Source of the DNA: Cladorhizidae sp. MBARI D1340-BT2
Lineage: Eukaryota; Porifera; Demospongiae; Poecilosclerida; Cladorhizidae
Length of the DNA: 64,000 nucleotides
Assembly: GCA_028752905.1 (NCBI GenBank)
Contig: JAQNBH010000009.1
Coordinates: forward strand, 29,928,976 to 29,992,975
Direction: 5' to 3'
Shown piece by piece: positions 29,446-64,000 of the stretch (position 1 is the first letter of the stretch; each line of letters starts with the position of its first letter). The position numbers and the translations under genes are program-made. The notes beneath the pieces are model-generated. The model was not told the DNA's origin. It saw only the letters and a program-made list of their open reading frames with translations, and did no database searches.

Positions 29446-29689
29446 TCACAAAAGTTAGTTCTGTGTCACTTACCATCCACATCATAACTCGGTTTTTTTA
29501 AATTTCTTTCTTCACATTTTCTTGATTGTTTTTTCTTCCAGTAGCACAACTTTTACCAATCCTATGTATGCAAACTACTATGACTATGAATAATATTTAT
29601 AGTGGATATGTAATATAAATGCATTGTTGCTAGATCATCCCAAAGCTAGCTGAGCTGAAATATATACTAGCACTGGCTATAGAATACCA

Positions 29690-30315: not shown

Positions 30316-31088
30316 TAACTTCGAGCACACTATGTAACAAACTGGTTAGCTCATCCACATAATAATCTTACTTGGAGTCTAGCTTCACTTGTCTTGCCAT
30401 CTCTAAAGATTCTTCTAGCCTCGTGTTAGGTAGAAAGTTAGGAGATATAGTCTGAATATCAATGGACACTCACACCTCAATGAGCCACATACAACAACAA
30501 CAACAAATAATAAAAACATCAGGTAATTTAAAAAAACAGGTGATTCCAATAAACAGTGTCCGCGTGCAGGGGAAATTACCTGGGTAACTCCCTTCGCATT
30601 CTAGACGCCAATGGGCAATATTAGGAAAGTTATGAGTAAAAAGAACATATCAACAGAATATATCTGTAAATACTTGTGTTGTTATAACTCTACCTACCTC
30701 TTGCTAGTGCCTCAACTGCCAGGGACTTGCCAGGCTGATGGATCAGAAACCAAACCCCTCATTAACAAAGTGCTAATACAGTTAGAGGTACTGTGAGGCC
30801 CAGCATCTGGCCCAACCAGTAAAGCAACATATTGCCTCCATTCCTTTCCACCAATCACTGTTGCACACCATTCCCCATCATTAGCTATTGTACCCATAGT
30901 TCATATTGAAATGTAATTACCGTACTTTATGACACAGGCAACCTGGAGTAACTGGCTAGCTGTTCTCTTAAGGTATAAATGTACTCTATGTATGCCAAGC
31001 TGCTGCAAGCTCCAGGTTTCTAGATCACTGAATCTTCCATGCCCTTCTTCGTGTGACTTGTGGCTGCTCCTATGCTGAAGCTGTGGCA
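30316..31088. other. no recognisable feature
   Basis: Short frames without domain matches on both strands. Confidence 0.4.
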
Positions 31089-31780
31089 CAGTAGACTTTC
31101 ACGTATCAGAATGTCGGATTATTCAAACTCAGTTGCATGGTAATGATCATCAATGGAAGATTTCATTAGGGAGGGCTAGAGATTTGCAGGTGAAAGTCAA
31201 ATCAGTTCGCTAAGCCTGCAAAAGGAAGAGCAGAGTTTTATCTAATGAGTCATAGTTGGCTGTGCTTGGCAAGATATTTTAAAAACCACTTGAGCTAGAC
31301 TCTCACAAGAGTATGGCAGTAGAAATGCAACGATAACAGAGATCATGAAGAATGAAACAAAACTTCGACAGTTAGCAGCAGCATTCATAGTCAGTGGAGA
31401 GTTCAAGTCATGTCATGAGCCTTGCTAAAGACGACCAGCTTGGAAGCACTCTATATTTCTATTTCATTCAGAAAAGGGGCCAAGGCATCAAGTCTCAATG
31501 AAATTCCATGAAAATTTACATGAAGGAGAATCAGAAGCACACCACTTGCTAGGGGCAAACTGGCATGATGAGATAGACCACCAAGTGTTGCAGGCAATTC
31601 TTAATCCTCCGAGACAGCACTGGTGGTTGTTAAAGGAGTGAGACATCTGGCATGCACAAAGAGGCATGATAACCTGAAGCAAAGAACTCTTGCATCTTAT
31701 TTTAGTAAATAGTGTTATTGTACAGGATGTAGTAACCAACAATAATTGCTCGTATAAAATATACACAAAAATACTGTAAA
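31089..31780 (+). mobile_element. pogo/Tigger-like transposon relic
   Basis: The left end CAGTAGACTTTCACGTATCA, with GGATTATTCAAAC following, resembles pogo/Tigger terminal repeats (CAGT..., then paired TATCCGAAC/TATTCGAAC words). Downstream, in mixed frames, are ATITEIMKNETKLRQLA and FIQKRGQGIKSQ, recalling the CENP-B-type helix-turn-helix region (usually KRAQGIPVSG). No intact frame and no matching right end were found; a second TTATCCGAAC word at about 31974 has the same orientation as the left end. Confidence 0.4.
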
Positions 31781-33055
31781 TGAATGAATATGTGTATACG
31801 ACATCATGGCTGCTACTGAGGACATAGCTGCTTCTCCTTCAGGAAGTAAGCTGCTCACATTCTATGGCCCTGCAGACTAAAATCGCTAATGATATTAGCA
31901 ATTATTCAAACACCTAAGTCAGTATCGACATGTTTATAATGACTTGCTTGCTTTTCATATATCCAAAGTTTTCCCTTATCCGAACTATAGTGTAGATCCC
32001 AATACGTTGAATGCATTTGGGTCTACAGTACCCAGATGCATCTAACCCTGCCTTGGCTGGGGACCGTCATGCAACCACTAACCATTGACATGTGAGATAT
32101 GTGCTGTCTCGAAACACAGAGATTGGGCCTTTTTTTACCCAGAGGTTAAGCAGAGTCCTGACTGGATAGATATCTGACTTTTTCTTCCCGATGAAGAGCT
32201 GGATTCCGTGATGAAAATTGTCTATCTTCGACTGTAATAGTCATTCTTATGATGTCCTGGCAGGACGGATAACCCACTGCAATAGCTGAGCAAGACAAGT
32301 GGCATGTTGGTTCATAGAGGCTTCTGATAGACTGTCATTTCATTTCTCCTGACCTTGGAAAGCAACAGAGGTTAAAGCAGCATGAATCCCAATGTGTGAT
32401 GTACAATACATACATACATATATATGGTTTTCCAAGTTTCCGTCCAGCTCCCCAGGTTTGCAACAACTATGGTCCTGTCTGCTCCCATATCAATGCGCAT
32501 TCTCTCCATTCTCTCTGGCCTACCCTGCCTTCTACACATAGACCTGGTTGTCTGATGGATGTTATTATAGACTCAGTCATTTCACTGTGTTTTTCCATCC
32601 TAACTTCTATCTCATACCCAGAATTGTCACATTTCGAACTTCTGCTTAAAAATGTAGACACAAAGTTAACTCTATCCCCAGACTTATCTTGAGGCTTTCC
32701 CGGAGTGCTACTGTAAAACGTGTTATTTACGTCACCCATACACTCACTGTACTTTGGGTTATGGTGTCCTTCCCTGCTGTCTTGGTTGACGTCGCAACAA
32801 TGAGTGCCAGTTCTGGAGATGACTGTCTTCATTCCATTGATTTCTTGACCAGTTTCCCGGGCAACTCCTCGGTTTCGTGCAGGGCAGTCATCTTTTGCGG
32901 AATTTAATATTCATGGCTTGTCGCTCTGTCATGAAGTTGGCGACTTCCAGGAAGATCTCAGTTTTCCATGCTCTAACATGGTTTGCATCCTCCAGTGAGT
33001 AAAAGGAGAGAAATTTTCCTGTTGCCACTGTCTGCACATCCTCTTTTACTGTATT
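31781..33055 (-). other. probable LTR-element sequence, not resolved
   Basis: Lies downstream (minus strand) of the gag remnant. The frame at 32467-32832 (121 codons, minus) is Ser/Arg-rich with no recognised domain. No protease or RT motif was found. Confidence 0.3.
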
Positions 33056-35128: not shown

Positions 35129-36390
35129 TCTTGCATAAAATGGGGGGCAAAATACAAAAATACACAATATGTAAATAATATGCAAACACTATGCACAATA
35201 TCAAACAATATACACACAGAAATGCTGAAAACGTGCTCTCACTTCTCCGAATCAACCAAGCTGAGCCAATGGTGTGAGGCCTGCGATTGTCAGTTGTACC
35301 CTAATGAGTTGGCAGGCAAATATGTACAGGATGTGGGAAGTCATCTTTGAGTACTAACTTCTATGGTTTGTTCTTTTTGTGAGATGTCCGCATCATGATT
35401 TGTTAACCCCATTCATATTGAACATGTTCATCTTGAGATTTGGGTATACCTAAAGTGGTTGAGCTAATGTGCATCAAGTATTAGCTTATGAGGCTATATA
35501 GGAGCACTCAGGACCATTGAGAAACATTTATAGCTTGTGTAGCTCTAGTTATTGTGGATGAGCAACTCTAGAACCTGCATCCCTTTATTTTGTGCCTGCA
35601 CACCAGAGATGTTTGTATTGTTAATTATATCATAGTCTGCAAACATGCTGGTAGCAATTGCCAGGTTGGCTAATCCATGTATGTCTGCCCAAGGTTATCA
35701 CCTGTTACTGTTAGGATAAATCTTTGTTAAATGTATGTTTTATAAGGGATAAAAAAGGTTTTGTAGAAAAGCTTCCTTACTCATATTAAATATGCAATTG
35801 TAAAGCTTGTTATAAAATTTCTTGTAAACTAGGGTTCATAGGACAACCCATTGGGTTTATATTTACTTATAATTATGCCTTCTAGGAATGGATTTTGGTT
35901 GATTCATAAATTTAGAGACTGGAAAATTTCAGCCAAATCTTGGGAGATCTAAGGAACTTCTTTGCCATAAGCCTCTGCCGCTCCATTAACTTGCTTATTG
36001 ATGTTGATAATTTACTCATCAGACTGAATCCATTTCTGATGAAGAAGCCTATAAAATCCTGGTATGTTTGATTGATTATGGATACTGTTTTTTTTAAATA
36101 ATTAATGATAACATTTTTCCATGGCATAACTATTTGTAAATGTAACTTTTTCCCTCATAAGTCCATTAAAGCTATCATCGGTTTGCAAATACAATAAGCT
36201 TTAGTTTTGTAATAGAAGTAACTCATTGAGTTAAGAAAATAAAAGCTATATTGCAGACAAATTCGTAGCAAATAAATCTGTTCAGAAATCCTTCCTACCT
36301 AGAGATTGAGCATGAGTTATAGGTGGTCATCCCTCACTGGATTTTTAGTGGCAGTCAAAATAATCCACGGCATTTAATCATGTATCTGAG
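35129..36390. other. no recognisable feature
   Basis: A Lys/Ser-rich minus-strand frame at 35912-36127 shows no domain. I looked for an LTR or primer-binding site upstream of the gag and found none. Confidence 0.4.
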
Positions 36391-37026
36391 GGGACAATGG
36401 TATTTAATTGTTTTATTTTTTACTTACGGTTACCACTTTAGATCTCCATAAATTCTGTATGTAAACTTCATTCTATGGACTTCATATATAGCTTAAATGA
36501 TAGGTCTCTCTATGTGCTCTCTTTTGATACTAAAATATGTTTTATACGTATAACTATAGCCAAGTTACTAGAACTAAAGTGGAGGGAACTTCAAAACCTG
36601 AATGGCCGCTTAAATATCTCCAGATTGCAAAGTGTTAAAGATTTGAAATTAGCACCAATGGCTAGAGCAAGCTCTACTCTATTCAACGAGTGTTTTCATT
36701 AGGTGTTAAAATGTAAGTACATTGTCAAGCACGTGGGTGAAATGTAGCTTCCTCTAGCCACTGGTGCTAATTTCAAATCTTTAGCACTTTGCAATCGGGA
36801 GATATTTATGCAGCCATTCAGGTTTTAAAGTTCCCTCCACTCAAGGTATAGTAACGTGGCTATAGATATATCTATGAAACATATTTTTGTATTAAAAGAG
36901 AGCACACAGAGAGACCTATCTTTTGGCATATATTAAGGCCATACCATGAAGTTTACAGAATCTACGGGGCTCTAAAATGGTAACCATAAGTAAAAGGAAA
37001 AGATTAAAAAAATACCGTTGCCCCCC
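36391..37026. mobile_element. foldback element, copy 3, complete
   Basis: Mirror-image arms centred near 36730. Outer ends are GGGGACAATGGTATTT and, at the right, AATACCGTTGCCCCC. The arms share the family landmarks (AATTCTGTATGTAAACTTCA, TCAAAACCTGAATGG, AAAGATTTGAAATTAGCACC). The frame at 36475-36702 only reads the left arm and is not a gene. Confidence 0.85.
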
Positions 37027-41639: not shown

Positions 41640-43205
41640 TTGTCATCAATAGGAACCTCTAGCCCTAGCCACCTACTACTCTAAAGCCCTAGCAGTTTTA
41701 GAACTTCTAACTCTTGACAACCATTACATGAACAATTACCGAGAAATATATATATTGAGTTTTGTTTTTGATCTATCATTTTACTCAGCTTATGATTATT
41801 GTGTATTAGTGCAAAGTTAAACAGAAACTTGGAGCTCTGGACTGATAGTGTATTAGGATGTAGGTGGTGAAAAATGGAAATCATTGACCTCCTTTTAATG
41901 TCATATAATTCTGACGTTCCACTCGTTCTTTATAATATGCACTACAATTTGCTATTTACAATACATTTATACAGCTGTGTGTTATTGTCCCTGCATAATA
42001 TGAATGCATTCTTGGTATATTTCTTCAAACTTTAGTTCCTGGATTGCCTACAAGTGATGGTACAAAAATTGGAACATCAGCAAGTCTTCCATTCAAAAGA
42101 TCCACACAGGTGAGCCATTATTCTACTGTTGTGTTTGCTTGATTTAACGAATGTTTTATTTTTCAGACTCCATCCTTCCCTGAACAAGCCAGTCAGAATA
42201 CTGGTAAGTGTAACTTAGTTTGGAATACTGGATTTTATTGAATGTGTATTTTTCCATGTGGAAGAAATTGGTCCATACAATAAAAGTGCCACAGTAAATT
42301 AATCAACAAACAGAGAGGATCAACAAACACAGAGGTTATATTTTTCATCGGGTTATCCAAGATAAAGATCTACTTTTTAGGTCAATAATTTCAAAATGAA
42401 ATATGTACCAAAGGAATTGAAACATGAAATATCGTGTCTATTCATATCCAATTTTTTTCAGCTCATGTTCAAAGATGTAAGTCAAGAAAGTAGAGTGACT
42501 CTTACAATTTTAAGATATACTTTGCTGTTGTTTTAAATCTGTTTTAAATGCACACAGCCCTCTTTTAACACCCGTTGGGGGAAAGTGGGTATTAAAACTA
42601 CACCACTCCAGTATGGCACCAAACATTGATTGTATAGTATTACACAGTATGAATGCATTCTATGATCACACATATTTTTTTATCCAGGATTGCCTACAAG
42701 TGCTGTTCCAAAAGTTGGCCTATCAGGAAGTCTTCCAGCCACACATGTGAACCAACACTCTATTGTTGTGTTTGTTTGCTTAATTTAATGTGATTTTTGG
42801 TTATTCCTACAGGCTCAATATTTTTCTGGTGAGCAAGCCTATGAACTTCCTGGTATGTGTTACTTACTTTGCAATAGTGCATTACTGTTTGTTTGAGTTG
42901 TTTGTGGGATTTTAGGTACTGTTAACAAGATCCGCTCAGAATAAATAAAGAAATTATGTAACATCCTTGACATAAGAAGCCTAACACTCCAAAGGTTTAG
43001 CTTAATTAGAAAACCTATGATTTTTTATATTATGTGATGAACACATGCCGATAATTATGTCATATTAAATGTTGTGTCTGTTCATGTCCCATTTTTCGTG
43101 GCTTATGTCACATACATTATAAAGTTTTCACTTCAGTCTGCCTTAAAGTCAGCACCTTCCACATAGCAAGTGCCCATTATACAGTTTTCTCTGATCTATG
43201 ATTTG
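41640..43205 (+). repeat. segmental duplication, upstream copy
   Basis: Co-linear with 44905-46400, introns included (for example CCTCCTTTTAATGTCAT then TGACGTT; TATGAATGCATTCTTG; AGTATGGCACCAAACATTGA). Offset is about 3.25 kb. It carries modules 1 and 2 of the repeated-exon gene. Confidence 0.85.
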
Positions 43206-46072
43206 ACTTGTTACTTGAAGAAACTGCCGAGTGCATAATAGGATAGCAAAGATAGCAAAGATAGAAGGTAGTATAACAATAAAAATGCATTGCTAGACTT
43301 GGATGAAGCTAAAGTTGACAACCTGGAAGCAGTTAAAGCAGAGGCACTGGCTAGACTTTTGTTAAAACCATGAAATTCTCACCTAGAGCTAACTAACCTC
43401 TAACTTCATTACAGTGGTAACACAGGGTGTCTATTTAAAATAACCGTGCAAATTACATAATGCAAGCGCCCATCCATCAGATATTCAAGGTGAGTAGCTA
43501 GTTCAGCTCCCTTTATGTCCTTTAGGGTAGATATTACTGAGTGGCACTGCAGTGGCATAAGTGCATGTGTGTATGTACAGCCAGGTATTGCAATAGTACT
43601 CTCTATATTGGCACATTTCAAAATAGGTTGAAAAAAACTCATGTCTTAGCTGCAACTTATTTAGGCAGTTTTTTATCATCCTAAAGGTGGTTTCTTCAAT
43701 TTTTTGCTCCAAATAGAATTCCAGCTTACCATGAATTCACTATGGTAGTACCTAGCAGATTAAAAAAATAAACGAATTAAAACCTGGATTCATTTAAAAA
43801 ATATATTTAAGTCCATCTATAACAAACTGAAATTGGTAAAGAACTGAAATTGGTAAAGAAGATCAACACTATAATTGACTTGTTTATGTGTGCTATTTAG
43901 CTAAACTGAGCTCAATTGGCAGCTACATGTTGCATGCTTGCAACCAGCACCATTCTATGCTTGAATTGCTTGACTCATATTCTATTCTTGCTCGGTTGCA
44001 ATGCATCGACTGCAATAATTGTTTGTGCTCTATTAGAGTTTGATATGCTTTATTTGAGTTTCAACTATAGAATTAAAATTTATTAGAGCTGTCAGAAACT
44101 GCCCTTGCATGTAGGAGGTGTCTGACATACTTGGAGAAGCATTAATGCCTCCAGCTCGTGAATGAGTCAAACTAATCTTCCTCCACATCATTATAAGATG
44201 CATCTGGGTGAGTTCCATACATATTCAATTTGTTCAATACATGGAATTATGAACTCCTCCGGAACTTTAAACATGAAATTCTAAACTAAGCTCACTCTCT
44301 AACAATGGATAGTGAAGATGATGGTCATTTCTACTCCAATGATGAGAAACTCAACCAGCATTTGCTTTTAGTATGAGGAAGAGCAACATGTGGAGATTTG
44401 TCTTTTTTGGGCATAGATTACAGTTAGCTATATGGATCAGTCCCACAACTTCTCCATGTATGTAGACATCTTCCGAACACAAGAAAATTTATCACAGCCT
44501 CAGTCATCCATTCAGTAAAAACAAAAGCACATCAAACTCAAATAAAATATGCCAAATATTTTGCAAACAAAATTTGCAGCTGTTCTGCTTTGACAAGTAC
44601 ATTCTGTTGTAAACTGTGATTATATAGAATTTAGGCCCTGAATTGCCTACAAGCACTATACAAAAAGGAAGGACATGAGGAGGAGGTCTTCCACTCAAGA
44701 TACCCGCACAAGTGAATATTATTGTATGAGGTTGCTTATTATAATAATGATTGTTCTCTTCTTCAGCTTCAACCTTTTTCTGTTGAGCAAACTGATGAAT
44801 ATCCTGGTATGTGTAAGTTACTGTGGAACACTGCTACGTTATTTTGGTTTTTACCATATGAATTATGCAAAAGAATTATGCAAAATAAATCGATTTTTTT
44901 ATATCAAAAGGAGCCACTAGCTCTCATTCTAACCCATGCTGCCTACAGTTCTACCGCTCTAGTATTTTAGAACTAGTATAATTTTTTTCAACAATCGGAT
45001 GATGAAGTGCCAAGAAATATGTACTATAAGATGGTGTCAGATTATGTTCATTGTGTATTAGTGATTTGGTGTAAAGTTTAATAGCTCTGGACAGATGTTG
45101 GTATTTCCATATATCTAGTTGAAAAATGGAATGCTATCACCTCCTTTTAAGGTCATGTAATTATGACGTTATGTCCACTTGTTCTTAATAATGCCCTGCA
45201 ACTTAATATAATACAGCTCAGATTTATTATCCCTACATATATAGTATGAATGCATTCTTGATTTATATTTTGATTACTGAACTTTAGACCCTGGATTGAC
45301 TACAAGTGCTGGTACAAAAATTGAGACATCAGGTCATCCAATTAAAAGATCCACACAGCTGAGCCAATCCTATATTGTTGTGTTTGCTAGATTTAATGAA
45401 TGTTTTATTTTACAGACTCTATCCTTCTCTGATAAACAAGCCAGAGATAATCCTGGTATGTGTAAATTAGTTTGGAATACTGGATTATATTTATGTGGAT
45501 AGTTTTACAAAAATTGGCCCAAACAATGAAAGTGCCCACATAAAATTAATCAAGAAATACAAGGGTTATTTTTAACCTTGTGTTATCAAGATAAAGGGAT
45601 CCACTTTTTAAAGTTCTATAATTTCAAAATGAAATATAATAATATCAATTGAAATGCAATATGAAATAATGTGTCTATTCATATCCTATTTTCATCAGCT
45701 TAGTTCAAAGATGTATGTCAAGAAAGTAGGGTGACTATTACAATTTTAACATGTGCTCTAAAAAAATATGGTTTTCAATTATCACAGCAAATGTAAAAAG
45801 TGGGTTTTAAAAGTACACCACTCTAGTATGGCACCAAACATTGATTGTATTAGTATAGCAGCTACCACTATGCAGTATGAATGCATTCTCTGATTAAACA
45901 TATTTTTTATCCAGGATTTCCTACAAGTGCTGTTCCAAAATTTGACCTATCAGAAGAAGGTCTTCCATCCACACATGTGAGCTAATACTCTTTGCTTGCT
46001 TATTTTAATGTGATTTTTTGTTAATACTACAGGTTCAATCCTTTTCTGATGAGAAAACATATGAAATTCCTG
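42036..46072 (+). CDS. partial gene of tandemly repeated two-exon modules
   Basis: Not a family I recognise. Five modules are present, each two short exons separated by an intron of about 55-65 bp. First exons: 42036-42109, 42688-42746, 44635-44711, 45288-45358, 45915-45976. Second exons: 42167-42203, 42813-42852, 44767-44806, 45416-45455, 46033-46072. First exons always enter in phase 1 and leave in phase 0; second exons enter in phase 0 and leave in phase 1 (ending CCT G before GTATGT or similar), so any number of modules keeps frame. The protein repeat is PGLPTS....K.G.S.SLP...TQ followed by .SFS.EQA....PG, hydrophilic, rich in Ser, Pro and Thr, with no cysteines in the module. The third module has an in-frame TGA (about 44673), and the fourth has lost its internal donor (GT to CT at 45359). 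5' and 3' ends of the gene were not found. The Death-fold exon upstream might belong to it. Confidence 0.72.
43206..44634. other. intronic/intergenic, no feature recognised
   Basis: Lies between modules 2 and 3 of the repeated-exon gene. No additional module found. Short minus-strand frames have no domain. Confidence 0.4.
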
Positions 46073-48133: not shown

Positions 48134-49480
48134 ATGCCTCCTTGGGATTGTGGTGGTGTAGCGATCAATTAGCTGTTGGTTGTAATTTCTGTGGTTATGG
48201 TGGGTTATTGTTTGATAAGTCATGGAGTGGTCCTGTTGATTTCCCTGACAGTAGCAATACAGTATACAGGATCCCATCCAAAGAACCATCCATAGATGAG
48301 GCAGTTGAAGTAATCTTGACGAAAGATGAAAGCTTGAGGGAGAGGACTACACTAGGGGCTGACAGGATTTCTGAAATGTTGGAATTGTGCCTGAAATCCA
48401 CCTACTTCAGGTTTCAAGAAAAATACTACGAGCAACAAGAGGGTGTAGCAATGGGCTATCCAGTATCTGCAGTAATAGACAACCTTTATGTGGAATTCTT
48501 TGAGGAATTGGCGCTCACAACTGCCCCACTAAAGCCAAGAGATACGTGGATGATACCTTCTGCATTTTGAAGAAGGGAAGTGAGCAGGACTTGTAGACCA
48601 TCTCAACAACAAAAGGCCATCCATAAAGTTTACCATGGAGCTTGAAGTGGCTGGATCGTTGCCCTTACTTCACTGCCTTATACAAAGGAAGGACTGCAAC
48701 CATCTAGAAAACCCATGCATACCAACCGATACCTTGATTATAGATCACATCATCACTTCCACTTCAAAAGAGGAGTGGTGAAGAGCTTGTATAATAGAGC
48801 CAGAAGAGTAGTGACTGAGAAGGAGGACCTTTGGAAGGAAGAACATCATTTCAATAAGGTCTTCATCGAGAATGGTTATCCACAAGCCTTCATGAACCGT
48901 TCACCTGCAGAAACATCTAAATGCAGAAAGGAAGATGAATACAACAGTACAGGCAATGAGGGTTCTATAAAAGAAGGATCCTATGATAGTGATTCCTTAT
49001 GCAGCAGGGATGAATGAAGACATCAGGAGGGTCTGCAGGAAGTTTAACACAAAAGTCGTCTTCAGATCGGGAAGACCTCTGAGGACACAACTGAGCAGAG
49101 TGAAGGATGTTTTATCAGCTAGAATGCACTCATGTGTTGTGTACCGCATTCCTTGTAACTGTGGGAAATACTACATAGGGGGGACCATCTGAAGACTGGA
49201 GACCTGAGTGATAGAACATCAATATGCCTGTAGAAATTGTCATAAAGAGAAGTCTGCTATTGCTGAGCATGCATGGGATAAATGGACATCCTATTTTGTG
49301 GGAGGAAGCCACCATCTTGGACCAGGCCAGAAGACAAGAAGGAACTGCTAGTGAAGGAGGCATTGCACATTGGCCTAGCACCAAAGTGTGAGCGGTTCAA
49401 TCGTGACTGTGGAATGGACTTGCCTGGCTGCTGGAGAACTACTCTGAAGAGCCTGAACTTGAAGCTACGACCACCATAAT
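48134..49480 (+). mobile_element. Penelope-like element: reverse transcriptase plus GIY-YIG endonuclease, broken
   Basis: Penelope-like elements encode an RT related to telomerase and often a C-terminal GIY-YIG nuclease. The frame at 48142-48570 carries SIDEAVEVILTKDESLRERT, LELCLKSTYFRFQEKYYEQQ, EGVAMGYPVSAVIDNLYVEF and FEELALTTAPLKP, the fingers/palm of this RT. A frameshift puts the catalytic RYVDDTFCILKKG at about 48540-48575. Further frames give ELEVAGSLP, YLDYRSHHHFHFKRGVVKSL (48730) and VVTEKEDLWKEEHHFNKVF. The C-terminal nuclease starts at CVVYRIPCNCGKYYIGGT (49135-49190), holding the GIY-YIG core as VYRIP...YYIGGT, and continues in shifted frames (EHAWDKWTS) to about 49476. The 5' part is missing. 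The 3' end runs into the trinucleotide microsatellite. Confidence 0.9.
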
Positions 49481-49486
49481 TAAATT

Positions 49487-50928
<1,442 letters not shown>

Positions 50929-50961
50929 GTTGTTTTATTTATTTGTTTATTTATGTATAGA

Positions 50962-51245
50962 CTTATAGGCAGCTGTGCATACTCCACCCCCTATTGCTGC
51001 AGGGATATCTCATGTTGTTCTAACAGTTGCTGGTACAGAGAAGCCACCATATTTAAAAGCTGCTTGGGTATTGGAATAACAATCCCATTGAAGTGGCCCC
51101 TCCCACCCACATGCGACTATCCAATGCTGAACATTCTATTAAATAGCAGCTTTGTAGGCCGAACTTCTCCCGGTTAAGTCTGTGAAATATATTTTAGATT
51201 CCGTAAACTCTGGTCATTAAGCCTCTCATTGTTTAGTTTGACTAA
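50962..51245 (+). repeat. dispersed repeat, copy B (partner at 21780-22075)
   Basis: Same order of shared blocks as copy A, with small indels. Lies between the microsatellite and the 3' exon of the left-arm integrase gene. Confidence 0.7.
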
Positions 51246-53792
51246 TATCCAAAGTAAAGGTCGAGCTACAGATAAAAAATATATCACAAAAAACAGACAA
51301 GGACATTCTAACATTTATCAAAACTCGGAAATACATCTATCCAGAAAATTTTATTATTCTTAGCCTTTTGATTTTTTCTCAGAAACAACAATGGGACTCT
51401 AATTTGATTCAGCTTATATAAAGGCACACATTAAAGGTACACATTAATTCATAAAAACATACCTATTGCCGTTTTAAATCTCTTTTTTGCTTGGAATCGA
51501 AATAAGCTTTATGCTTCGCTTTAGCTTCTTCAATTTTCAACCGTATCTTCTCATATGTACCTATGTGATTACAAAATAAAACAGATCTTTAACATGATTT
51601 TTGGGGAGTGCATCAAACATTTTCATTAAACTATTTGTCCCCATTTTTGTTACAAAAAAGTGTCAGCAATTCAATGTCATATATTTATGTTTGCCAGTCA
51701 GTTTTGTTCTTACATCTGCCACATGCTTCTCCAAATTATAATGTATGTCTTCAGGAGAAATAGTGAATGAGATGTTTTCATAGAGAAGCTTCTGCTCATT
51801 CTCATGTTCTGCATTATTGATGGCTATGGAACCCCTAGCTGTTCGGTAGAACATCAACACAAATGGCTGTTGCTTTGTTGAAGACAGGACACTTGTATTG
51901 ATACCATAAGTTGTGGGGAGTACATATCTACATAAGTACACAAACATCATACATAGAAATCATAACTACAAGCAGCACATTCAAGGTACATGCATCCTTT
52001 AGCTGAAGGCTTACACCTAAAACCATTTTATATTTTTTGTATATAAGAATTTGGAAAATAATATACCGTATTGCTACAATGTGCAATTTAGAGTTTTTGA
52101 GCTCCATAAATGTATAATGCGGTCTTAGTTTTGCATTTTATAATAAGTACCACTAATTATAACAAGATCGGTTGGCACTTTTCTGCGCACTATTCTGACC
52201 ATGCAGTACTCTTGCATATTTTCGTTTGCTCTCCTGATACTTCTCTGATCGATTCCTGCGTCTTCGCTAGTAGACAGGGATCGTTTGAAGCACATTCGAA
52301 TATTCACACTCTGGTCAGCTTCTCATTTTCTCGCTAGTAAACTGTCTGGCTTTTGGCTGCAATATGCATGTGGAATGTTTTGTGCGATAAAAAATATTGC
52401 GAATATGTTTTACGAATAACAATGCACTCGCAAAACTTAATCAAATTTTGTAGCAATACGGTAGCAATAAGTACTATTTTTTATGCCTTTTCATAATTTT
52501 ATATGTGTGTGTCTGTGAGTGGGTGGGTGTTTCAGTGCGAGAGGATTCATTGGAGATTCTGGTGAGATTTTCTGGGGTAATCACAGATTACCATGAAATG
52601 TGATATTGGCATCTATTGGAATGTGGTGGTAATAGTAGAAATCTCTCTATTTATTAAGAAACTGTCAATCTTGAAAAATAATTATTAAATATTGGTAGCT
52701 TAATTGTCTCAGTCAGATTGAGCATCGTTTGTATACTTGGCCTATTAAGAGTTTGATTAGTCCGCTTATCTTGGCCATTGCTCTGAGGGTGATATGCTGA
52801 ACATACCATCATCTGCTTCACTCCAAAATCAGTCAAGACAACATCATTGAGCTGAGTCATCAAATAAGTTCACACAAACAGAACATTACTCTACATGAAT
52901 ATTTATCAAAAGGAAACAGGAGGAAATTTCCAGAGAATCAAGACTGAAGTCGCTAATATAGTTATCATAAATTGTGTTAAGTCTGCCTTGTACTGAATAG
53001 TCTAACTTTGCTCTTGTAAACAAATCCAACACATTTTCCTTGATTAATTTTCACTTCTCAGACCACATACACATGTCATTTCATAAACACAGATGGCAAC
53101 AGTTTTATTAAGTTAGTTACCTGGTTTATAAATTCACGCACCTGATCCATTATAATTTTTTAGGGAGGACCATAACTGTAGATGACCTCGAGTAGAATGC
53201 TTGCGACATCACCAGCTGACTTGGACTCGATTGGCCGAGCAAATACCCACTTGGTAAAGAGATCTGTAACAGTGCAGACATATATATGGCCTTCGTCTGT
53301 GGCTGCAAATGGACCAATGAGGTCTATACCCAAAATCTCCCAGCTGAAAGTATTTGCTACATGATTTTAAGCAAATCAGATGTGCCTGTAATTACCTGAT
53401 TTTATGCATTTTAATTATTATAATTATAGTCCATAAGATTAGGATTGGTAACCTGTTTATTAAAATTAACAAAAAAATTATTCAATTTAATCTGTGTATA
53501 TATGTAGCGTCTAAATTCCCCTATATACTAACTTGTCCAATATCAGACCTATTCATGCGGCCTAAAAGTTTAGGCTTTTCTTGCCTGCATTTTAAAATGC
53601 ATTAGCACTCTCATGTAGGTTTGGCAGGTCAGAGATCATTCAGCAACAAACTAAAACTCGCCATATACTCGATTCTATCCCTATACAGACCCTAAAAACA
53701 GGATGTCGCAGAAATCCTTCCCAACAATATAGCACACAGAAGCGCAGTTCTTCAAACAAAAAAAAAGGTCGGAAAAATTACGCGTAAAATCA

Positions 53793-53828
53793 TCATCAGC
53801 ATCATCATTATCATCATCATCATCATCT
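53793..53828. repeat. (ATC)n microsatellite, left arm copy
   Basis: CATCATCAGCATCATCATTA-type run. Its mirror (GAT)n is at about 62500-62540 in the right arm, with different unit numbers. Confidence 0.85.
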
Positions 53829-53951
53829 TATTGGCTGCATAGATTTCATTTATTTTTATGCCATTTTGTAGAGCGTTATCTGGGAAGGTGCCTTTTGGTA
53901 TCGCTTTAGAGAGCTACTAAAAAAAGGTTGATTTTTGCATATATAGTTCGT

Positions 53952-54152
53952 CTAAGACGAACGGCGTGCGCAACCCAAATTGCTCGATCCTTTACCAAAT
54001 CGCTGTGTTAGAAGCAGTGGATTGAGTGTATGGCTTTTGCAGGGAAAAATCAAAGAAGGATTGCTGAATGTAGTTACTGATGGGGGAAGCATTTTAGGAT
54101 TGTTCCTTATGGCATTCCAAACCACTGGACCAATCTGTCCCAAACTTGTCAT
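53952..54152 (-). other. small open frame shared by both palindrome arms, left copy
   Basis: 66 codons beginning MTSLGQIGPVVWNAIRNNPK, inside the long intron before the integrase core exon. The right-arm counterpart (62165-62374) keeps the same start and frame for about 60 codons with few replacements. No family recognised. It could be a small gene or chance preservation. Confidence 0.3.
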
Positions 54153-54352
54153 GCATGCATACCAACTTGACCTGTGGAGTAACCTGGACTAGGTCTGACC
54201 AGGACACTCCTCTTCATGTGGGCATTGCAGGTATATATAGCATCAAAATAGTATTCCAACTCACGAAAGCTTTAAAATATAGTGGGAACAAGTAATATGT
54301 AAAAAAATAATTAATAAATAAAAGGACATATAGGGTAGGCTTTGATATTTTG

Positions 54353-54705
54353 CTGTCATAACAATCACTCCATTACTGCCTCCACTCTACCATAAGGGAC
54401 CTCATAAACTTCAGCAATAAAATATTCTTGGATAACAATCCCTACATTACTGCCTCCAGAAGGGACAGCAAAATTGTGATAAATAACTGATGCTATATAG
54501 CAGCACATTTTCTTGCAAACTAAGCTATAAATCTCTTCATACCTTATGTTAGAGTAATCTGAATTTTATCATATTTGTGACGTCCCTTGTGGTTGTGGAG
54601 GCAGTAATATAGTCCAAGAATATATTATTATTGCTGAAGTTTATAATTATTTGTGAGGTGACTTGTGGTTGTTTGGAGGCAGTAATGGAGTGATTGATAT
54701 GACAG
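54353..54705. mobile_element. hairpin MITE nested in left arm
   Basis: Starts CTGTCATAACAATCACTCCA and ends in its inverse (TGGAGTGATTGATATGACAG). Internal words ATTACTGCCTCCA/TGGAGGCAGTAAT recur four times in alternating orientation. About 353 bp, intronic. Confidence 0.82.
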
Positions 54706-55589
54706 TCTAGCTATCATATATTTCCCCAGTTGGGCCTAACGTATTTCCAATGGGCATATTTTCTATAATTTGCACATTGTTGCTCAGTACACTTGGTCAC
54801 AGTAACTTAGTTACCTGCTCAAAACTTTAATGGGATGTAACTCAGGTGCAATCATCTTGATCATCTGCATCTTCTGGCACTTGTGTGACAAGTGCTTAGC
54901 TAAAGGTATAAAAAGTAACATATTATTATCGATATGGTTACAACACTATTCAGTGTCAATGGGATAAAATAAATTTCAACTTCAATTAACAAATAAGTAG
55001 AATCAATACAGTAATGTTAATTTTGTTTCACGATTTACGAGTTTCTTAATTAAAGCTTTAAAGTTGCAAACAAAATATAATGCTCACTGCTCATAATATG
55101 GTATGAGTACATTTTTTCCCATTATTTATCTTATTTCTTACAACCAGTGAGATTGATGTGTATTTAAAGCCTCATCATCACTTGCACATCCATGTTGACA
55201 TTTTAATTTGGGATGCTGTGCACTAAACTATTCTTACAACCATAGTAGTCCAGTATTAATCCTGTGGTCAGTTGGGCTAAGGTACGCTTTTGCCCTTGGT
55301 GAGCACCATTGGCCTCACATAGTAGCATCTGATGTTCATCACTAGAGAAAAATACCAGCCTCTTAACTGTCTCATTTGGATGGTTCATTGTCGGTTGGGT
55401 ATAAGACATTCTTTCACCTACAATATATTAATATTTTTACAAATGAAGTTTTTAAATATTTAAATACAGAATAAATTCATCTTGGAATTTCCCATAAAAC
55501 CTCTCCAGGTAGATGATATCAGTGTCCCAATGACACTGTGATCAGAGGGTCAGAGGTACAACAACAGGTTAGGACTGAATTTCAGCCAG

Positions 55590-55632
55590 ATCGGATTGTT
55601 ACTACTACTACTACTCTACTACTACTACTACT
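55590..55632. repeat. (TAC)n microsatellite, left arm copy
   Basis: ACTACTACTACTCTACTACT tract. Its mirror (AGT)n is at about 60676-60716. Confidence 0.8.
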
Positions 55633-56552
55633 GAAAAAATCTTTATTAATGCAAATGTCTGGGAGGTCGAGAAAACTCATTGAAAGTTGATTTTGAGAGA
55701 CTTTTTTTCTCTCTTCACTCTGGTGGTGGTGGCGATAGTCATGATAGGATGTGGATGGGTCAGAAATGGGGCAGATATGGCTGGAAACGGTCTGGAAGGT
55801 CGGGAAAACTCATGTTTTTTTTAGGGGGATTAGTACTTATAATTATCAAGGCATTATATAAATAATTATGTCACTCGTTTGTGTTTTGAATGTTCAGATC
55901 GAAAATGAATTTTCTGAACCTTATCCCAGAAAAGGCTGCTAGCGTCAATTTCCTTCAATAGCAGGGGGTACTCCACAAATCCCGTTATTGCAGCAACAAC
56001 CATGCAATGACTTTGGAACTTTGTGACAAAGGAGACAGATGGAGGTGTCACCGTCGAGGTTGTCGAGAGCAGAAGGGGTTGCGAGTAGGCACGTGACTTG
56101 AGAAATTCAAGCTGACTTACAGAAAGATTATCGTATTTATTTATTGCTGGTCTAGCTTACTACTACCAAATGTTCCGATCATGAAATTGACATTGATTTG
56201 TAATTGACATTGATTTGTAATTTAGCCACAGGTAAATAACAAACAATTACCTTAATTATTATCGCAATGAACTATTGGGTACAGAGGAACTTGCTAATTT
56301 GTGAGAAGTAGATGTGATTTACAGAAGCTCTTTGTTGGCATGTCTTAAAGTGCACACAGGATAGAATGTTGGTATTTGTAGAATGTTGGTATTTGTTCTG
56401 AATACTTATGTTATCTGAATGCCAATGATTTGGATAAAGATTAACATACCAAGAGGTGTCAATTCTTTTTCTTATTACACTCTGCTCCTTCGCACTCGTG
56501 TCACAACTATATTTTCCATTCGTAGGGAAATATTCGATCTTCCGCAGATATA

Positions 56553-57905
56553 CTGCAGGGTCCTTCTCTGTCCTCACCATCACAATTCAGCTCCACACGA
56601 GGGACAAATTTGGCAGCTGACTTTATTGATGCATGGTTTATTAATTTTGTGTGGCTGTGCTTGCACGGTGTAGCAAAAGGGACAAATATGGCAGTGGGAC
56701 TAATATGGCACGACACCGGCTGGTGGCGGGCCCTTCTCTTGAGATGAATCTTTGGAATGGTGAGTATAAAAATTACGATAACTTCATAATTAAATAACCA
56801 AATATTCTGAAACTTTACAAAGTGAAAGATTCACTGTTTAACTATAGTATGAGTAAGTTAAGTAATAATAATAAATAAAAAAAATTAAAAACACAGTCAG
56901 GGTCCCCCTTAATAAAACAAGATATAAAACACAAACCGGAAATAATAACAGCCATGGTCACAACAAGGGTACACACCTGTCCCTAGCTACAATAAAAATA
57001 ATTCTGCATACTCCTCTTCCTCTCCTCAAGGTAGACCCCAAAAAGCTGAAGACAAGCAGGACACTCAGGCACAAGGGACACAAAAGAAACCAGAACCTAA
57101 AACCAACAAACCAATCCAACAAACCGACCCAAGAAGCATATAAAAGGATTTCTACGAAACACACAATTACTAAGGCACACACTGCCATAAGTGTGCACCC
57201 CAAAATGAAGAAGTCTCTCATGAATTTAAATGAATTAAGAGATTAAAATAACATCATAGATAAAAATATTATCAAGTGTAAAGCATCTTTCTCTCTTGAA
57301 AGAGAAAGTACTCCAGTTTCATCATATCAGTAATCACCTACAAGCCTTGACCCTCCCTCCCTCTAGGGAATGTTTATCCTCAGTTTATCAGTTTATCAGT
57401 TTCTAAGTTTTTTTTCTTCTTTCTGTTCTAGCCCAAACAAAACCTGCACCATCATGCATCATCCACATTCCAATCCAACACTCTGTAATACACACAACAC
57501 CCATTTACTATATATAGCATCATTCACACCATCCACCATGCAATCACAAAAGTGTGAATATGTGCTTACCACTTTTTATAAGCACCAACAAGCATTGAGT
57601 ACCTCATTCTTAGCATAGACAAAGATACCTCCAAATATTTGCCAAATAAAAATATATTGATCTCGCTGTCAAATAACTTTTTAAGACAACCATATTTACA
57701 TCAATAAGTCCTCTACCATGTCCCGCCATTGCTCAGCACATTGAAAACTCTCTCCCTGGGGAGCAGGAGGATATCTAGAGGATGGATGCACCAACGCAGG
57801 ACAGATTACCACTCCCCCACAGGTGGCCCCTCCCACTGGTCCCCATCTATATACCACACTATCACTCATTCACAGGCAAGAACAAGATAATCATGTTCTG
57901 GATAG
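56553..57905. other. inner third of left arm, no gene recognised
   Basis: Mirrored by about 58489-59829. It should contain the promoter and any upstream exons of the integrase gene. Short frames on both strands are conserved between arms (for example 56958-57221 minus with 59194-59385 plus; 57370-57618 plus with 58773-58979 minus), but none has a recognisable domain. Confidence 0.4.
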
Positions 57906-58112
57906 ATTATGTCTAGGGGCTGGGTTATGGTATACTTGGCAGGGATTATGTCTAGGGGCTGGTTTATGGTATACTGGGCAGGGATTATGTCTAGGGGCCT
58001 GGTTATGGTACACTGGGTGCAGGGATTATGTCTAGGGGCTGTGTTATGGTATACTGGGCAGGGTTGATGTCTAGGGGCCTGGTTATGGTATACTGGGCAG
58101 GGATTATGTCTG
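57906..58112. repeat. 39-bp tandem repeat in spacer, about 5 copies
   Basis: Unit GATTATGTCTAGGGGCCTGG plus TTATGGTATACTGGGCAGG. It has no mirror on the other side of the palindrome. Confidence 0.9.
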
Positions 58113-58488
58113 GTTTGGTTCCAGCTATGGCACCCTGTGGTGGAGTGGGGGACAGGCATGATGGCCAACCCGAGGATACAATCATTGTTAATTATGAGCT
58201 GTAGGCTGGAGCCTGAAGCCAAGGGAGTACCACACTACCCAGTTGAAAGAACATATCCTCCAATGTAGGCATATGAATTTTCTCTGGAGTCTGCATATTT
58301 CTGTGCTAGAGGAAGCTATCTGATGTGTTGGTTTATTTGTCAGTCAGTTATTTTGGTAGGCTGTTTTGGATTGACGCAGAGTATCCTTCCTAGAAGTAGA
58401 AATTCTCTAGTGTATTTATTGCTAAAGGTGGTAGTGTTAGTGTTGTGCGTGCGTGTATCAACTTGGTGTTTACAGTGTTGCTGGAGAT
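57906..58488. other. palindrome spacer
   Basis: About 580 bp of asymmetric sequence between the arms. The arms' last shared word is GTTCTGGAT (57894-57902; reverse complement around 58491-58499). The left part holds a 39-bp tandem array; the right part (58110-58488) is unique with no open gene. Confidence 0.85.
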
Positions 58489-61400
58489 AATCCAGAACGT
58501 GATTATCTTCTTCTTGCCTGTGAATGAGTGATAGTGTGGTATATAGATGGGGAGCAGTGGGAGGGGACACCTGTGGGGGAGGGGTAATATGTCCTGCGTT
58601 GGTGCATCCAACCTCTAGATATCCTCCTGCTCCCCAGGGAGAGAGTCTTCAATGCTGAGCAATGGCGGGACATGATAGAGGACTTATTGATGTAATATAT
58701 TTGTCTTCAAAAAGTTATTTGACAGCGAGATCAATATATTTTTATTTGGCAAATATTTGGAGGTATCTTTGTCTATGCTAAGAATGAGGTACTCAATGCT
58801 TGTTGGTGCTTATAAAGAGTGGTAAGCACATATTCACACTTTTGTGATTGCATGGTGGATGGTGTGAGTGATGCTATATATAGTAAGTGGGTGTTGTGTG
58901 TATTACAGAGTGTTGGATTGGAATGTGGATGATGCATGATGGTGCAGGTTTTGTTTAGGCTAGAACAGAAAGAAAACAAACAAACTTAGAAAGTGTTAAA
59001 CTGATAAACTGAGGATAAACATTCCCTAGGGGGAGGGAGGGTCAAGGCTAGTAGGTGATTACTGATATGATGAAACTGGAGTACTTTCTCTTTCAAGAGA
59101 GAAAGATGGATTACACTTGATAATATTTTAATCTATGATGTTATTTTAATCTCTTAATTCATTTAAATTCATTAGAGACTTCTTCATTTTGGGGTGCACA
59201 CTTATGGTGGTGTGTGCCTTGGTAAATGTGTGTTTTGTAGAAATCCTTTTATATGCTTCTTGGGAGGTTTGTTGGATTGGTTTGTTGGTTTTAGGTTCTG
59301 GTTTCTTTTGTTTCCCTTTTGCCTGAGTGTCCTGCTTGTCTTCAGCTTTTTGGGTTCTACCTTGAGGAGAGGAAGAGGAGTATGAAGAATTATTTTTATT
59401 GTAGCTAGGGACAGAAGTGTACCCTTGTTGTGACCATGGCTGTTTTTATTTCCGATTTGTGTTTTATATCTTGTTGTATTAAGGGGGACCCTGATTGTGT
59501 TTTTATTTTAATTTATTTATTATTATTATTTAACTTACTCATACTATAGTTAAACAGTGAATCTATCACTTTGTAAAGTTTCAGAAGATTTGGTTATTTA
59601 ATTATAAAGTTATCATAATTTTTATACACACCACTCCAAAGATTCATCTGGCCCGCCACAAGCCGGTGTCATGCCATATTAGTCCCACTGCCATATTTGT
59701 CCCTTTTGCTACACCATGCAAGTGCAGCATCACAAATTTAATAAACCGCGCATCAATAAAGTCAGCTGCCAAATTTGTCCCTCGTGTGGAGCTGAATTGT
59801 GATGGTGAGGACAGAGAAGGACCCTGCAGTATATCTGCGAAGATCGAATATTTCCTTAAGAATGGAAAATACAGTTGTGACATGAGTGCGAAGGAGCAGA
59901 GTGGAATAAGAAAAAGAATTGACACCTCTTGGTATGTTAATCTTTATCCAAATCATTGGCATTCAGATAACATAAGTATGCAGAACAAATGCCAACATTC
60001 TACAAATACCAACATTCTATCATTTAAAACATGACAACAAAGAGATTCTGTAAATCAGATCTACTTCTCACAAATAAGCAAGTTCCTCCATACCCAATAG
60101 TTCATTGCGATAATAATTATGGACTTGTTTGTTATTCACCTGTGACTAAATTACAAATCAATGTCAATTACAAATCAATGTCAAGTTCATGATCGGAAAA
60201 TTTGATAGTAGTAAGCTCGACCAGCAATAAATAAATACGATAATCTTTCTGTAAGTCAGCTTGAATTTCTCAAGTCACGTGCCTATCGCAACCCCTTCTG
60301 CTCTCGACAACCTCGACGGTGACACCTCCATCTGTCTCCTTTGTCACAAAGTTCCAAAGTCATTGCGTGGTTGTTGCTGCAATAACGGGGTTTGTGGGTA
60401 CCCCTGCTATTGAAGGAAATTGACGCTAGCAGCCTTATCTGGGATAAGGTTTGACAAGTACAAAAAATTCATTTTCGATCTGGACATTCAAAACACAAAC
60501 AATTGGGGGAGGGAGAATAAGAATAACATTCGATTCATTCAAAACATTGGTGGTGGGGGAATAACAAACGAGTGCCATAATTATTTATACAATGCCTTGA
60601 TAATTTAAGTACTAATCCCCCTAAAAAAGCATGAGTTTTCCCGACCTTCCAGACATTTGCATTAATATTTTAAAAATCAGTAGTAGTAGTAGTAGAGTAG
60701 TAATAGTAGTAGTAACAATCCGATCTGGCTGAAATTCAGTTCCTAACCTGTATTTTGTACCTCTGACCCTCTGACCACAGTGTCATTGGGACACTGATAT
60801 CATCTACCTGGAGAGGTTTTATGGGAAATTCCAAGATGTATTTATTCTGTATTTATATATTTAAAAACTTCATTTGTAAAAATATTAATATATTGTAGGT
60901 GAAAGAATGTCTTATACCCAACCCACAATGAACTATCCAAATGAGACAGTTAAGCGGCTGGTCCTTTTCTCTAGTGATGAACACCAGATGCTACTACGTG
61001 AGGCCAATGGTGCTCACCAAGGGCAAAAGCGTACCTTAGCACGACTGACCACAGGATTAATACTAGACTACTATGGTTGTAAGAATAGTTTATTGCACAG
61101 CATCTACAATTAAAATGTCAACATGGATGTGCAAGCGATGATGAGGCTTTAAATACACATCAATCTCACTGGTTGTAAGAAATAAGATAAATAATGGAAA
61201 AAAATGTACTCATACCATAATTATTATGAGCAATGAGCATTATATTTTGTTCGCAACTTTAAAGCTTAATTAAGAAACTCGTAAATCGTGTAACAAAATT
61301 AACATTACTGTATTGATTCTACTTATTTTTTTATTGAAGTTGAAATTTATTATATCACATTGACACTGAATAGTGTTGTAACAATATAGGTAATAATATG

Positions 61401-61611
61401 TTACTTTTTATACCTTTAGCTAAGCACTCATCACAAGTGCCAGAAGATGCAGATGATCAAGATGATTGCACCTGAGTTACATCCCATTAAAGTTTTGAGC
61501 AGGTAACTAAGTTACTGTGACCAAGTGTACTGAGCAACAATGTGCAAATGATAGAAAAGATGCCCATTGGAAATACGTTAGGCCCAACTGGGGAAATATA
61601 TGATAGCTAGA

Positions 61612-61965
61612 CTGTCATAACAATCACTCCATTACTGCCTCCACACAACCACAAGTCACCTCACAAATAATTATAAACTTCAGCAATAATAATATATTCT
61701 TGGACTATATTACTGCCTCCACAACCACAAGGGACGTCACAAATATGATAAAATCCAGATTACTCTAACATAAGGTATGAAGAGATTTATAGCTTAGTTT
61801 TGCAAGAAAATGTGCTGCTATATAGCATCAGTTATTTATCACAATTTGGCTGTCCCTTCTGGAGGCAGTAATGTAGGGATTGTTAGCCAAGAATATATTA
61901 TTGCTGAAGTTTATGAGGTTCCTTATGGTAGTGTGGAGGCAGTAATGGAGTGATTGTTATGACAG
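61612..61965. mobile_element. hairpin MITE nested in right arm
   Basis: Mirror copy of 54353-54705: starts CTGTCATAACAATCACTCCA, ends TGGAGTGATTGTTATGACAG. Present at the matching place in both arms, so it inserted before the inverted duplication. Confidence 0.82.
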
Positions 61966-62164
61966 CACAATATCAAAGCCAACCATATATGTCCTTTTAT
62001 TTAGTAAAAAAAATTTACATATTACTTGTTCCCACTATATTTTAAAGCTTTCGTGAATTGGAATACTGTTTTGATGCTATATATGCCTGCAATGCCCACA
62101 TGAAGAGGAGTGTCCTGATCAGACCTAGTCCAGGTTACTCCCCAGGTCAAGTTGATATGCATGC

Positions 62165-62374
62165 ATGACAAGTTTGGGACAGATTGGTCCAGTGGTTTGG
62201 AATGCCATAAGGAACAATCCTAAAATGCTTCCCCCATCAGTAACTACATTCAGCAATCCTTCTTTGATTCTTCACTGCAAAAGCCATACCCTCAATCCAC
62301 TGCATCTAACACAGCGATTTGGTAAAGGATCGATCAATTTGGGTTGCGCACGCCTTTCAAAGATGGCATCTTAG
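62165..62374 (+). other. small open frame shared by both palindrome arms, right copy
   Basis: 69 codons starting MTSLGQIGPVVWNAIRNNPK, the counterpart of 53952-54152 and equally unrecognised. The C-terminus differs (LSKMAS against RRSS). Confidence 0.3.
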
Positions 62375-62497
62375 ACGAACTATATATGCATAAATCAACT
62401 TTTTTTAGTAGCTCTCTAAAGCGATACCAAAAGGCACCTTCCCAGATAACGCTCTACAAAATGGCATAAAAATAAATGAAATCTATGCAGCCAATAA

Positions 62498-62542
62498 GAT
62501 CATGATGATGATGATGATGATAATGATGATGATGATGATGCT
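62498..62542. repeat. (GAT)n microsatellite, right arm copy
   Basis: ATGATGATGATGATGATAAT-type run mirroring 53793-53828, with a different number of units. Confidence 0.85.
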
Positions 62543-64000
62543 GATGATGATTTTACGGATAATTTTTTCCTACCCTTTTTTAAGTTTGGAGAACTGCGCT
62601 TCTGTGTGCTATATTGTTGGAAGGATTTCTGCGACATCCTTTTTTTAGGGTCTGTATAGGGATAGAATCGAGTATATGGCGAGTTTTAGTTTGTTGCTGA
62701 ATGATCTCTGACCTGCCAAACCTACATGAGAGTGCTAACGCATTTTAAAATGCAGGCTAAACTTTTAGGCTAGTACATAGGGGAATTTAGACGCTACATA
62801 TATACACAGATTAAATTGAATAATTTTTTTGTTAATTTTAATAAACAGGTTACCAATCCTAATCTTATGCACTATAATTATAATAATTAAAATGCATAAA
62901 ATCAGGTAATTACAGGCCCATCTGATTTGCTTAAAATCATGTAGCAAATATTTTCAGATGGGAGATTTTGGGTATAGACCTCATTGGTCCATTTGCAGCC
63001 ACAGACGAAGGCCATATATATGTCTGCACTGTTACAGATCTCTTTACCAAGTGGGTATTTTCTCGGCCAATAAAGTCCAAATCAGCTGGTGATGTCGCAA
63101 GCATTCTACTCGAGCTGATCTACAGTTATGGTCCTCCCTAAAAAATTATAATGGATCAGGGGCGTGAATTTATAAACCAGGTAACTAACTTAATAAAACT
63201 GTTGCCATCTGTGTTTATGAAATGACATGTATGTGGTCTGAGAAGTGAAAATTAATCAAGGAAAATGTGTTGGATTTGTTTACAAGAGCAAAGTTAGACT
63301 ATTCAGTACAAGGCAGACTTAACACAATTTAAGATAACTTTATTATCGATTTCAGCTTGATTCTCTGGAAATTTCCTCCTGCTTCCTTTTGATAAATATT
63401 GATGTAGAGTAATGTTTCTGTTTGTGTGAACTTATTTATAACTCAGCTCAATGATGTTGTCTTGACTGCTTTTGGAGTGAAGCAGATGGTATGTTCAGCA
63501 TATCACCCTCAGAGCAATGGCCAAGATGAGCGGCCTAATCAAACTCTTAAGAGGCCACTGTCCAAGTATATAAATGATGCTCAATCTGACTGGAACAAGT
63601 AAGCTACCAATATTTAATAATTATTTTTCAATATTGACAGTTTGTTAATAAATAGAGAGATTTCTACTATTACCACCACATTCCAATAGATGCCAATAAT
63701 CACATTTCATGCTAGTCTGTGATTACCCCAGAATATCTCACCATAATCTCTCCAATGAATCCTCTCACACTGAAACACACACACACTCACTCACGCACAC
63801 ACACATATAAAATTATGAATAGGCATAAAAAATAGTACTTATTGCTACCGTATTGCTACAAAATTTGATTAAGTTTTGCGAGTGCATTGTTATTCGTAAA
63901 ACATACTCGCAATCTTTTTTATGGCACAAAACATTCCGCGTGCATATTGCAGCCAAAAGCCAAACGGTTTACTAGCGAGAAAGAAGCTGACTACAGTGTG

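Follow-up and report, generated by a model that had tools for sequence, protein, structure and literature searches.

An old inverted duplication of Ginger1-like transposon debris in a cladorhizid sponge, probably made once by fold-back or template switching and then passively amplified

The described systems closest to the locus reported here are human inverted-duplication (inv-dup) rearrangements, ascribed to fold-back or to fork stalling and template switching/microhomology-mediated break-induced replication (FoSTeS/MMBIR), whose signature is an inverted copy, a spacer that serves as a loop, and microhomology at the junction (PMC9199198); the palindromes of mammalian sex chromosomes, located in amplified regions, with inverted arms of several kilobases on either side of a small spacer (PMC8981503, PMC6790999) and arms more than 99% identical through frequent gene conversion (PMC8981503); origin-dependent inverted-repeat amplification (ODIRA), a model of inverted copy-number variation that starts from an inverted triplication and has been proposed as the shared origin of inverted repeats and of palindromic junctions (PMC10766186); and, for the content of the arms, the Ginger1 DNA transposons (PMC2836005). 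Ginger1 elements combine a Gypsy-like integrase core, an H2C2 zinc finger with a YPYY motif upstream of it, a GPY/F motif, introns, and a C-terminal OTU or Ulp1 domain, sometimes with a PHD finger; they end in terminal inverted repeats of 40-270 bp, with a 4-bp CCGG or CCGT target-site duplication (PMC2836005). Here we describe a giant imperfect palindrome in 64,000 nucleotides of the sponge Cladorhizidae sp. MBARI D1340-BT2 (the window: contig JAQNBH010000009.1, here called C18, positions 29,928,976-29,992,975), followed through an assembly of 857,237,253 bases in 325 contigs. We explain it by events of a familiar kind, the inverted duplication long ago of decayed transposon sequence and the later amplification of the result as a passenger; we think it probable that the duplication happened once, by fold-back or template switching, and was then carried passively to about fourteen places.

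Aligned with its own opposite strand, the window gives two matches with E=0, 60631-64000 against 55680-52305 (93.0%) and 58490-60500 against 57903-55877 (93.8%); an additional 30 kb to its right located the end of the right arm and its outer flank (window-based coordinates continue the numbering of the window past 64000). With this sequence included the outer arm aligns as 51253-55680 against 65048-60631, and the arms measure 6.65 kb (left) and 6.56 kb (right) (Table 1). The initial annotation had recognised the palindrome and described arms of at least 5.5 kb beginning at 52305, a spacer of about 580 bp with a unique part at 58112-58488, and arm divergence of about 4-7% in hand-compared exons, with private indels; the palindrome is confirmed, but its arms are longer, 52305 being merely the mirror image of the window's end. 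Beside a minisatellite the spacer contains 378 bp that self-comparison shows to be unique within the window, and the arms are 94.57% identical across 6,495 aligned bases, from which they depart by 353 substitutions (149 transitions, 204 transversions) and 43 indels; their lowest similarity (61%) falls in a single 250-column stretch. One-base indels number 20, two of them in homopolymers of at least 4. Given these substitutions and indels, and the small share of one-base indels in homopolymers, the divergence between the arms is biological rather than read error. An insert resembling a miniature inverted-repeat transposable element (MITE) is present in both arms and also in related copies on another contig, C16, and therefore predates the duplication.

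Table 1. Positions of the palindrome, its integrase exons and the surrounding duplicated block in the window.
Feature	Position	Strand	Remarks
Left arm	51253..57903	-	Inverted copy of the right arm; self-comparison, outer-junction data
Right arm	58490..64000 (to 65048 beyond the window)	+	Ancestral orientation; self-comparison, outer-flank data
Spacer	57904..58489	.	586 bp; read as fold-back loop
39-bp minisatellite	57905..58111	+	5.3 copies, at the inner junction; Tandem Repeats Finder
Self-palindromic MITE-like insert	61612..61965 (right arm)	.	Mirror at 54353-54705 in the left arm
Exon A (zinc-binding region), left arm	55206..55427	-	Open-frame limits
Exon A, right arm	60889..61110	+	Open-frame limits
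Exon B (between zinc finger and core), right arm	61420..61502 (approximate)	+	Short exon, by eye
Exon C (integrase core), left arm	53163..53366	-	In-frame stop codon after
Exon C (integrase core), right arm	62935..63138	+	Pfam rve; in-frame stop codon after
Exon D, left arm	52738..52890	-	Third catalytic acidic residue replaced
Exon D, right arm	63408..63599	+	Open-frame limits; third catalytic residue present
Window part of the block shared with C15	32406..64000	.	Full block 32406-74005 (window-based), 41.6 kb

The palindrome in the window is one of many with the same inner junction. A 36-base pattern spanning the boundary between left arm and minisatellite matches the genome at 14 places, the window on C18 and 13 others on C15, the latter in both orientations over 6.4 Mb (26.84-33.23 Mb); the reversed control of this pattern has no genome match. 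At 8 of the 14 places the inner and outer left junctions are 6.64-6.69 kb apart, and at three of the other six an N gap occupies the position of the outer one, so that the check took in 11 places. A 1-kb probe over the centre of the palindrome, with 40 of 217 candidates scored, found at least 12 full-length relatives on C15 (94-96%) and many partial ones on C16.

Six palindromes were read, the one on C18 and five on C15, two of the latter being 99.7% twins, and their arms sort by side rather than by palindrome. Specifically, i) in the inner arm, left arms differ from one another by at most 2.3%, as do right arms, and left differs from right by 3.7-4.7%; ii) FastTree separates left arms from right arms with support of 1.000 for each, and IQ-TREE recovers both clades at 100/100; iii) with the near-identical twin left out, 72 sites diagnostic of left and right are clean in five palindromes, the exceptions being an 8-site conversion tract in one left arm, three terminal sites of another arm, and isolated single sites; and iv) in the outer arm, IQ-TREE groups left and right arms together against five other members of the family (support 92/95), and the two share 7 fixed differences from those members. 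Because left arms are alike, right arms are alike, and left and right are about 4% apart, the palindrome appears to have formed a single time, before its copies spread. Four C16 arms agree with the right arm at 29 and with the left arm at 27 of the 72 sites, and inner left and right arms would therefore have changed at about equal pace; equal pace is not clear in the outer arm, where 38 fixed left-only differences stand against 23 fixed right-only ones. In its multi-kilobase arms, small spacer and amplified setting the palindrome resembles those of mammalian sex chromosomes (PMC8981503, PMC6790999), but its arms are 94.6% alike rather than more than 99%, with few conversion tracts, the 8-site tract being the one clear case.

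The two arms differ in what lies outside them. The outer flank of the right arm is common to two C16 copies and to single copies on C13 and C15, whereas that of the left arm is of another type, identical in all three left arms with a readable flank; patterns for the two flanks match the genome 555 times (right type) and 17 times (left type). Since the right arm's flank is the common one, the left arm is the inverted copy, and the right arm retains the ancestral orientation. The minisatellite strand and the point at which the arm resumes have 6 nt in common at the inner junction, where there are also a few extra bases, and about 5 nt are shared, by eye, at the outer junction. Inverted copies surround a single-copy spacer, the arrangement expected of fold-back (PMC9199198), and the palindrome most likely originated by fold-back or template switching, with the spacer as loop. 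We propose that 6.6 kb of a decayed Ginger1-like transposon with introns gave rise, once, to an inverted copy next to the original, in a duplicon presumably on the chromosome that C15 now represents in the assembly. A 3′ end within the 39-bp minisatellite would have switched to the opposite strand at a point some 586 bp behind it; synthesis would then have run outward along the arm to its outer end, where the new strand was joined to other sequence. Larger segmental duplications would afterwards have multiplied the finished palindrome passively, giving the 13 C15 places and the one on C18. With human inv-dup rearrangements (PMC9199198) this palindrome shares a single-copy spacer between inverted copies and, more doubtfully, junction microhomology of a few bases; it differs from them in being interstitial, old, flanked by further sequence and present at 14 places; no terminal deletion or dicentric was seen at it. 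ODIRA could likewise yield inverted repeats with palindromic junctions, but its model begins with an inverted triplication (PMC10766186), and here there is a duplication with one loop only.

Several observations weigh against this account. The inner microhomology is weak, 476 of 20,000 random pairs (about 2%) reaching 6 nt. No strict progenitor, with right arm and spacer but no left arm, was found among the copies read: single copies on C15 (L033) and C13 (L034) are without a long inverted arm over the 10 kb read, and the spacer and the inner 1-2 kb are missing from both. In the inner arm, support for a clade of left and right arms together is just 52/83. The C15 region contains N gaps, and the count of 14 places may be off by one; two of its palindromes (C15:29,280,001-29,320,000) face each other, 99.7% alike, around a join of 100 Ns, and may represent a retained haplotype or a scaffolding error. 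Finally, the palindrome is known from assembled sequence.

Integrase exons point outward in both arms, in agreement with the initial annotation, but the multi-exon gene it had seen in each arm is intact in neither. The core exon C of the right arm matches Pfam rve (E=2.6e-6, 28 bits) below the curated cut-off of 32.6, and all three of its database matches carry PF00665; exons A, B and D were recognised by eye and by comparison of copies, right-arm exon A having no Pfam match and right-arm exon D a weak one to rve_3 (E=0.067, 13.4 bits). Beyond the right arm the gene continues with a GPY/F-like exon, seen by eye, which the left arm lacks. The stop after the core exon is present in 13 of 13 C15/C18 copies compared, among them a partial third copy that lies beyond the palindrome at window-based 92.7 kb. 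In exon D, 6/6 left arms have the third catalytic residue replaced, and the 5/5 right arms seen have kept it; with the shared stop and the residue lost from every left arm, the integrase gene in the C15/C18 copies is dead. Both C16 copies are open at the site of that stop, one frame-broken in exon A and the other open in exons A, C and D, and the C16 relatives may be less decayed. Genes under selection were considered and rejected: pN/pS between C16 and C15/C18 is 0.68, and against the hint of constraint between left and right arms of the C18 copy (10 synonymous and 12 nonsynonymous differences, a ratio of about 0.35 from few sites) speaks the stop that they share. Also within the left arm, 55869-56156 on the minus strand matches Pfam Cg6151-P, weakly and below cut-off (E=0.0059).

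The combination of integrase core, GPY/F-like exon, PHD finger, Ulp1-like stretch and introns suggests that the mirrored gene is probably an intron-bearing Ginger1-type DNA transposon. Trait by trait, i) the rve match, although below cut-off, and PF00665 in the database matches agree with a Gypsy-like DDE integrase core; ii) the histidines of an H2C2 zinc finger can be picked out by eye in exon A, and exon B, also by eye, lacks one expected cysteine; iii) the GPY/F-like motif lies just beyond the right arm, in a fragment with no Pfam match; iv) a PHD finger in a C16 copy exceeds its Pfam cut-off (E=1.3e-6, 28.8 bits); and v) a Ulp1-like stretch in a C16 copy was seen by eye and has no Pfam match. 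Introns in the transposase gene, and dispersed copies that contain presumed intron sequence, are further likenesses to Ginger1 (PMC2836005), from which the family differs in the dead state of its C15/C18 copies and in a Ulp1 domain that Pfam does not recognise. The exon pattern has 471 matches genome-wide, and the right-type outer flank is also scattered, among the matches listed, over C1, C2, C3, C5, C7 and C9; since this dispersed flank is presumed intron sequence, the family has probably spread at the DNA level.

C16 carries palindromes too, with an opposite-strand pair at 22 of 27 places among the matches listed, and this family is probably the product of an independent second event. The strongest alternative, which we nonetheless judge unlikely, is a single event ancestral to the C15/C18 and C16 palindromes, after which the C16 arms were homogenised and the C15/C18 lineage lost the left copy of the spacer. 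Both families do carry the same arms mirrored near the same minisatellite, arm-to-arm conversion does occur, and one of four C16 arms is compatible with the left or the right clade in approximately unbiased (AU) tests (p=0.21 and 0.20); but the same tests exclude the other three from both clades (p 0.00041 or less), and the axes differ, that of the two C16 palindromes read lying inside the 39-bp minisatellite and both of their arms carrying the spacer. The grouping of left with right arms against C16 and single copies also speaks for two events, clearly in the outer arm but not in the inner, at the support values given above.

Elsewhere on C18 (30,194,014-30,201,826) a further inverted pair of left-arm outer parts has its outer junctions 1.26 kb apart, near 30.197 Mb. 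Copies of the exon pattern are regularly spaced at C15:19.8-20.9 Mb (about 64.8, 53.8 and 110.3 kb, later 64.5 and 112.5 kb), and spacings of about 63-65 kb return at C13:24.0-25.1 Mb, C14:21.5-23.5 Mb and C3:14.3-15.1 Mb, which suggests higher-order arrays with periods of about 170-230 kb. As a tentative suggestion, more doubtful than not, the minisatellite may have been a recurrent seed of inverted duplication, in the C15 lineage, independently on C16, and in the further C18 pair, and the family's arrays of about 170-230 kb near the middle of C13 and C15 could be centromere-associated mega-repeats.

Two separate head-to-head insertions of one transposon family have in their favour that the family of the arm numbers hundreds of copies, some of them scattered over several contigs. 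We regard this as a rather poor explanation: the left arm ends short of the GPY/F-like exon and lacks the 586 bp of inner right-arm sequence, which would make it an incomplete insertion, and left and right arms are each other's nearest relatives in the outer arm, if with the low inner-arm support already noted.

The inverted duplication and its surroundings recur together. One C15 copy (30.81-30.88 Mb) is colinear with window-based 32406-74005 for 41.6 kb at 97.3-97.8%, with one N gap on the C15 side opposite 49190-51570, and another, of which 30 kb was read, matches 43923-74005 and then continues with sequence matching 41955-43263 at 97.9%. Because the shared flanks extend well beyond the palindrome, it would have been carried along in larger duplications. 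The ends of the block do not behave as transposon ends: the left one falls within a microsatellite, a comparison of 32406 with 74005 found no inverted repeat above 9 bp, and past 74005 the two C15 copies read share some 11 further bases before diverging. A palindromic unit that itself transposes with two integrase genes, also raised in the initial annotation, might account for the copy on C18 and for the 13 on C15, which occur in both orientations across 6.4 Mb, and one C16 copy is open in exons A, C and D; we consider it very improbable, as the homology with the C15 copy runs to 41.6 kb, the left arm stops short of the later exons, the integrase is interrupted in both arms and in every C15/C18 copy compared and has lost a catalytic residue in the left arms, and the two C16 copies are colinear over the entire 20 kb compared (95-96%). 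The palindrome is thus probably not a new kind of mobile element. A 5.8-kb inverted repeat (window-based 17907-23680/79434-85181, 93.6%) lies asymmetrically on either side of the palindrome block; that it bounds a giant element of 67 kb is disfavoured, the centre of such an element being off that of the palindrome and the C15 block ending at 74005.

An assembly artefact, whether read fold-back or a head-to-head join of haplotypes, has the N gaps of C15 and the facing pair in its favour but is hardly credible, as the C18 copy runs for 94 kb without any N, the inner junction recurs at 14 places with arm-specific differences in 6/6 palindromes read, and homopolymers hold so few of the one-base indels. 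The initial annotation had itself taken the divergence of the arms as an argument against read fold-back, with which the recurrence of the junction agrees; of the origins it offered, a real inverted duplication accords with the fourteen junctions and the left and right clades, and two joined haplotypes do not, because arms that were alleles could not reappear, with junction and left/right differences unchanged, on a second chromosome.

Other features of the window and assembly may be noted. Fragments at 28142-29356 match Pfam DDE_Tnp_1_7 (E=6.8e-15 and 5.1e-10), which we take to be a piggyBac-type transposase, and lie in a segment (26815-32406) with no match in the C15 copy compared. A CobW-domain fragment lies at 661-963 (Pfam E=1e-7), and the stretch 62-3403 is found again, at 89.5-93%, close to a C15 palindrome. 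At 19520-20274 and 36390-37025 there are self-complementary (foldback) repeats, 640-750 bp long, parts of which are about 78% alike. Long tandem repeats lie at 14122-15521, 49498-50918 and window-based 67443-70897; these include repeats with periods of about 60-65 bp and, in an array outside the window, 52 bp, as well as a trinucleotide-rich tract. A search for COX1 returned, on contigs C124-C128, many full-length copies of equal score and many partial ones, with in-frame TGA and all in one orientation among the matches listed, an oddly repetitive mitochondrial-like assembly.

Full-text searches listed no description of this palindrome, which does not permit a claim that it is absent from print. 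The later copies give this inverted duplication a relative date, and the case shows how it has aged: its inner junction has remained fixed while both arms diverged with few traces of conversion between them, in contrast to the palindromes of sex chromosomes. What deserves following is the possibility that one minisatellite has served as an axis more than once; if that minisatellite did seed palindromes repeatedly, it would be a natural hotspot for testing fold-back models.

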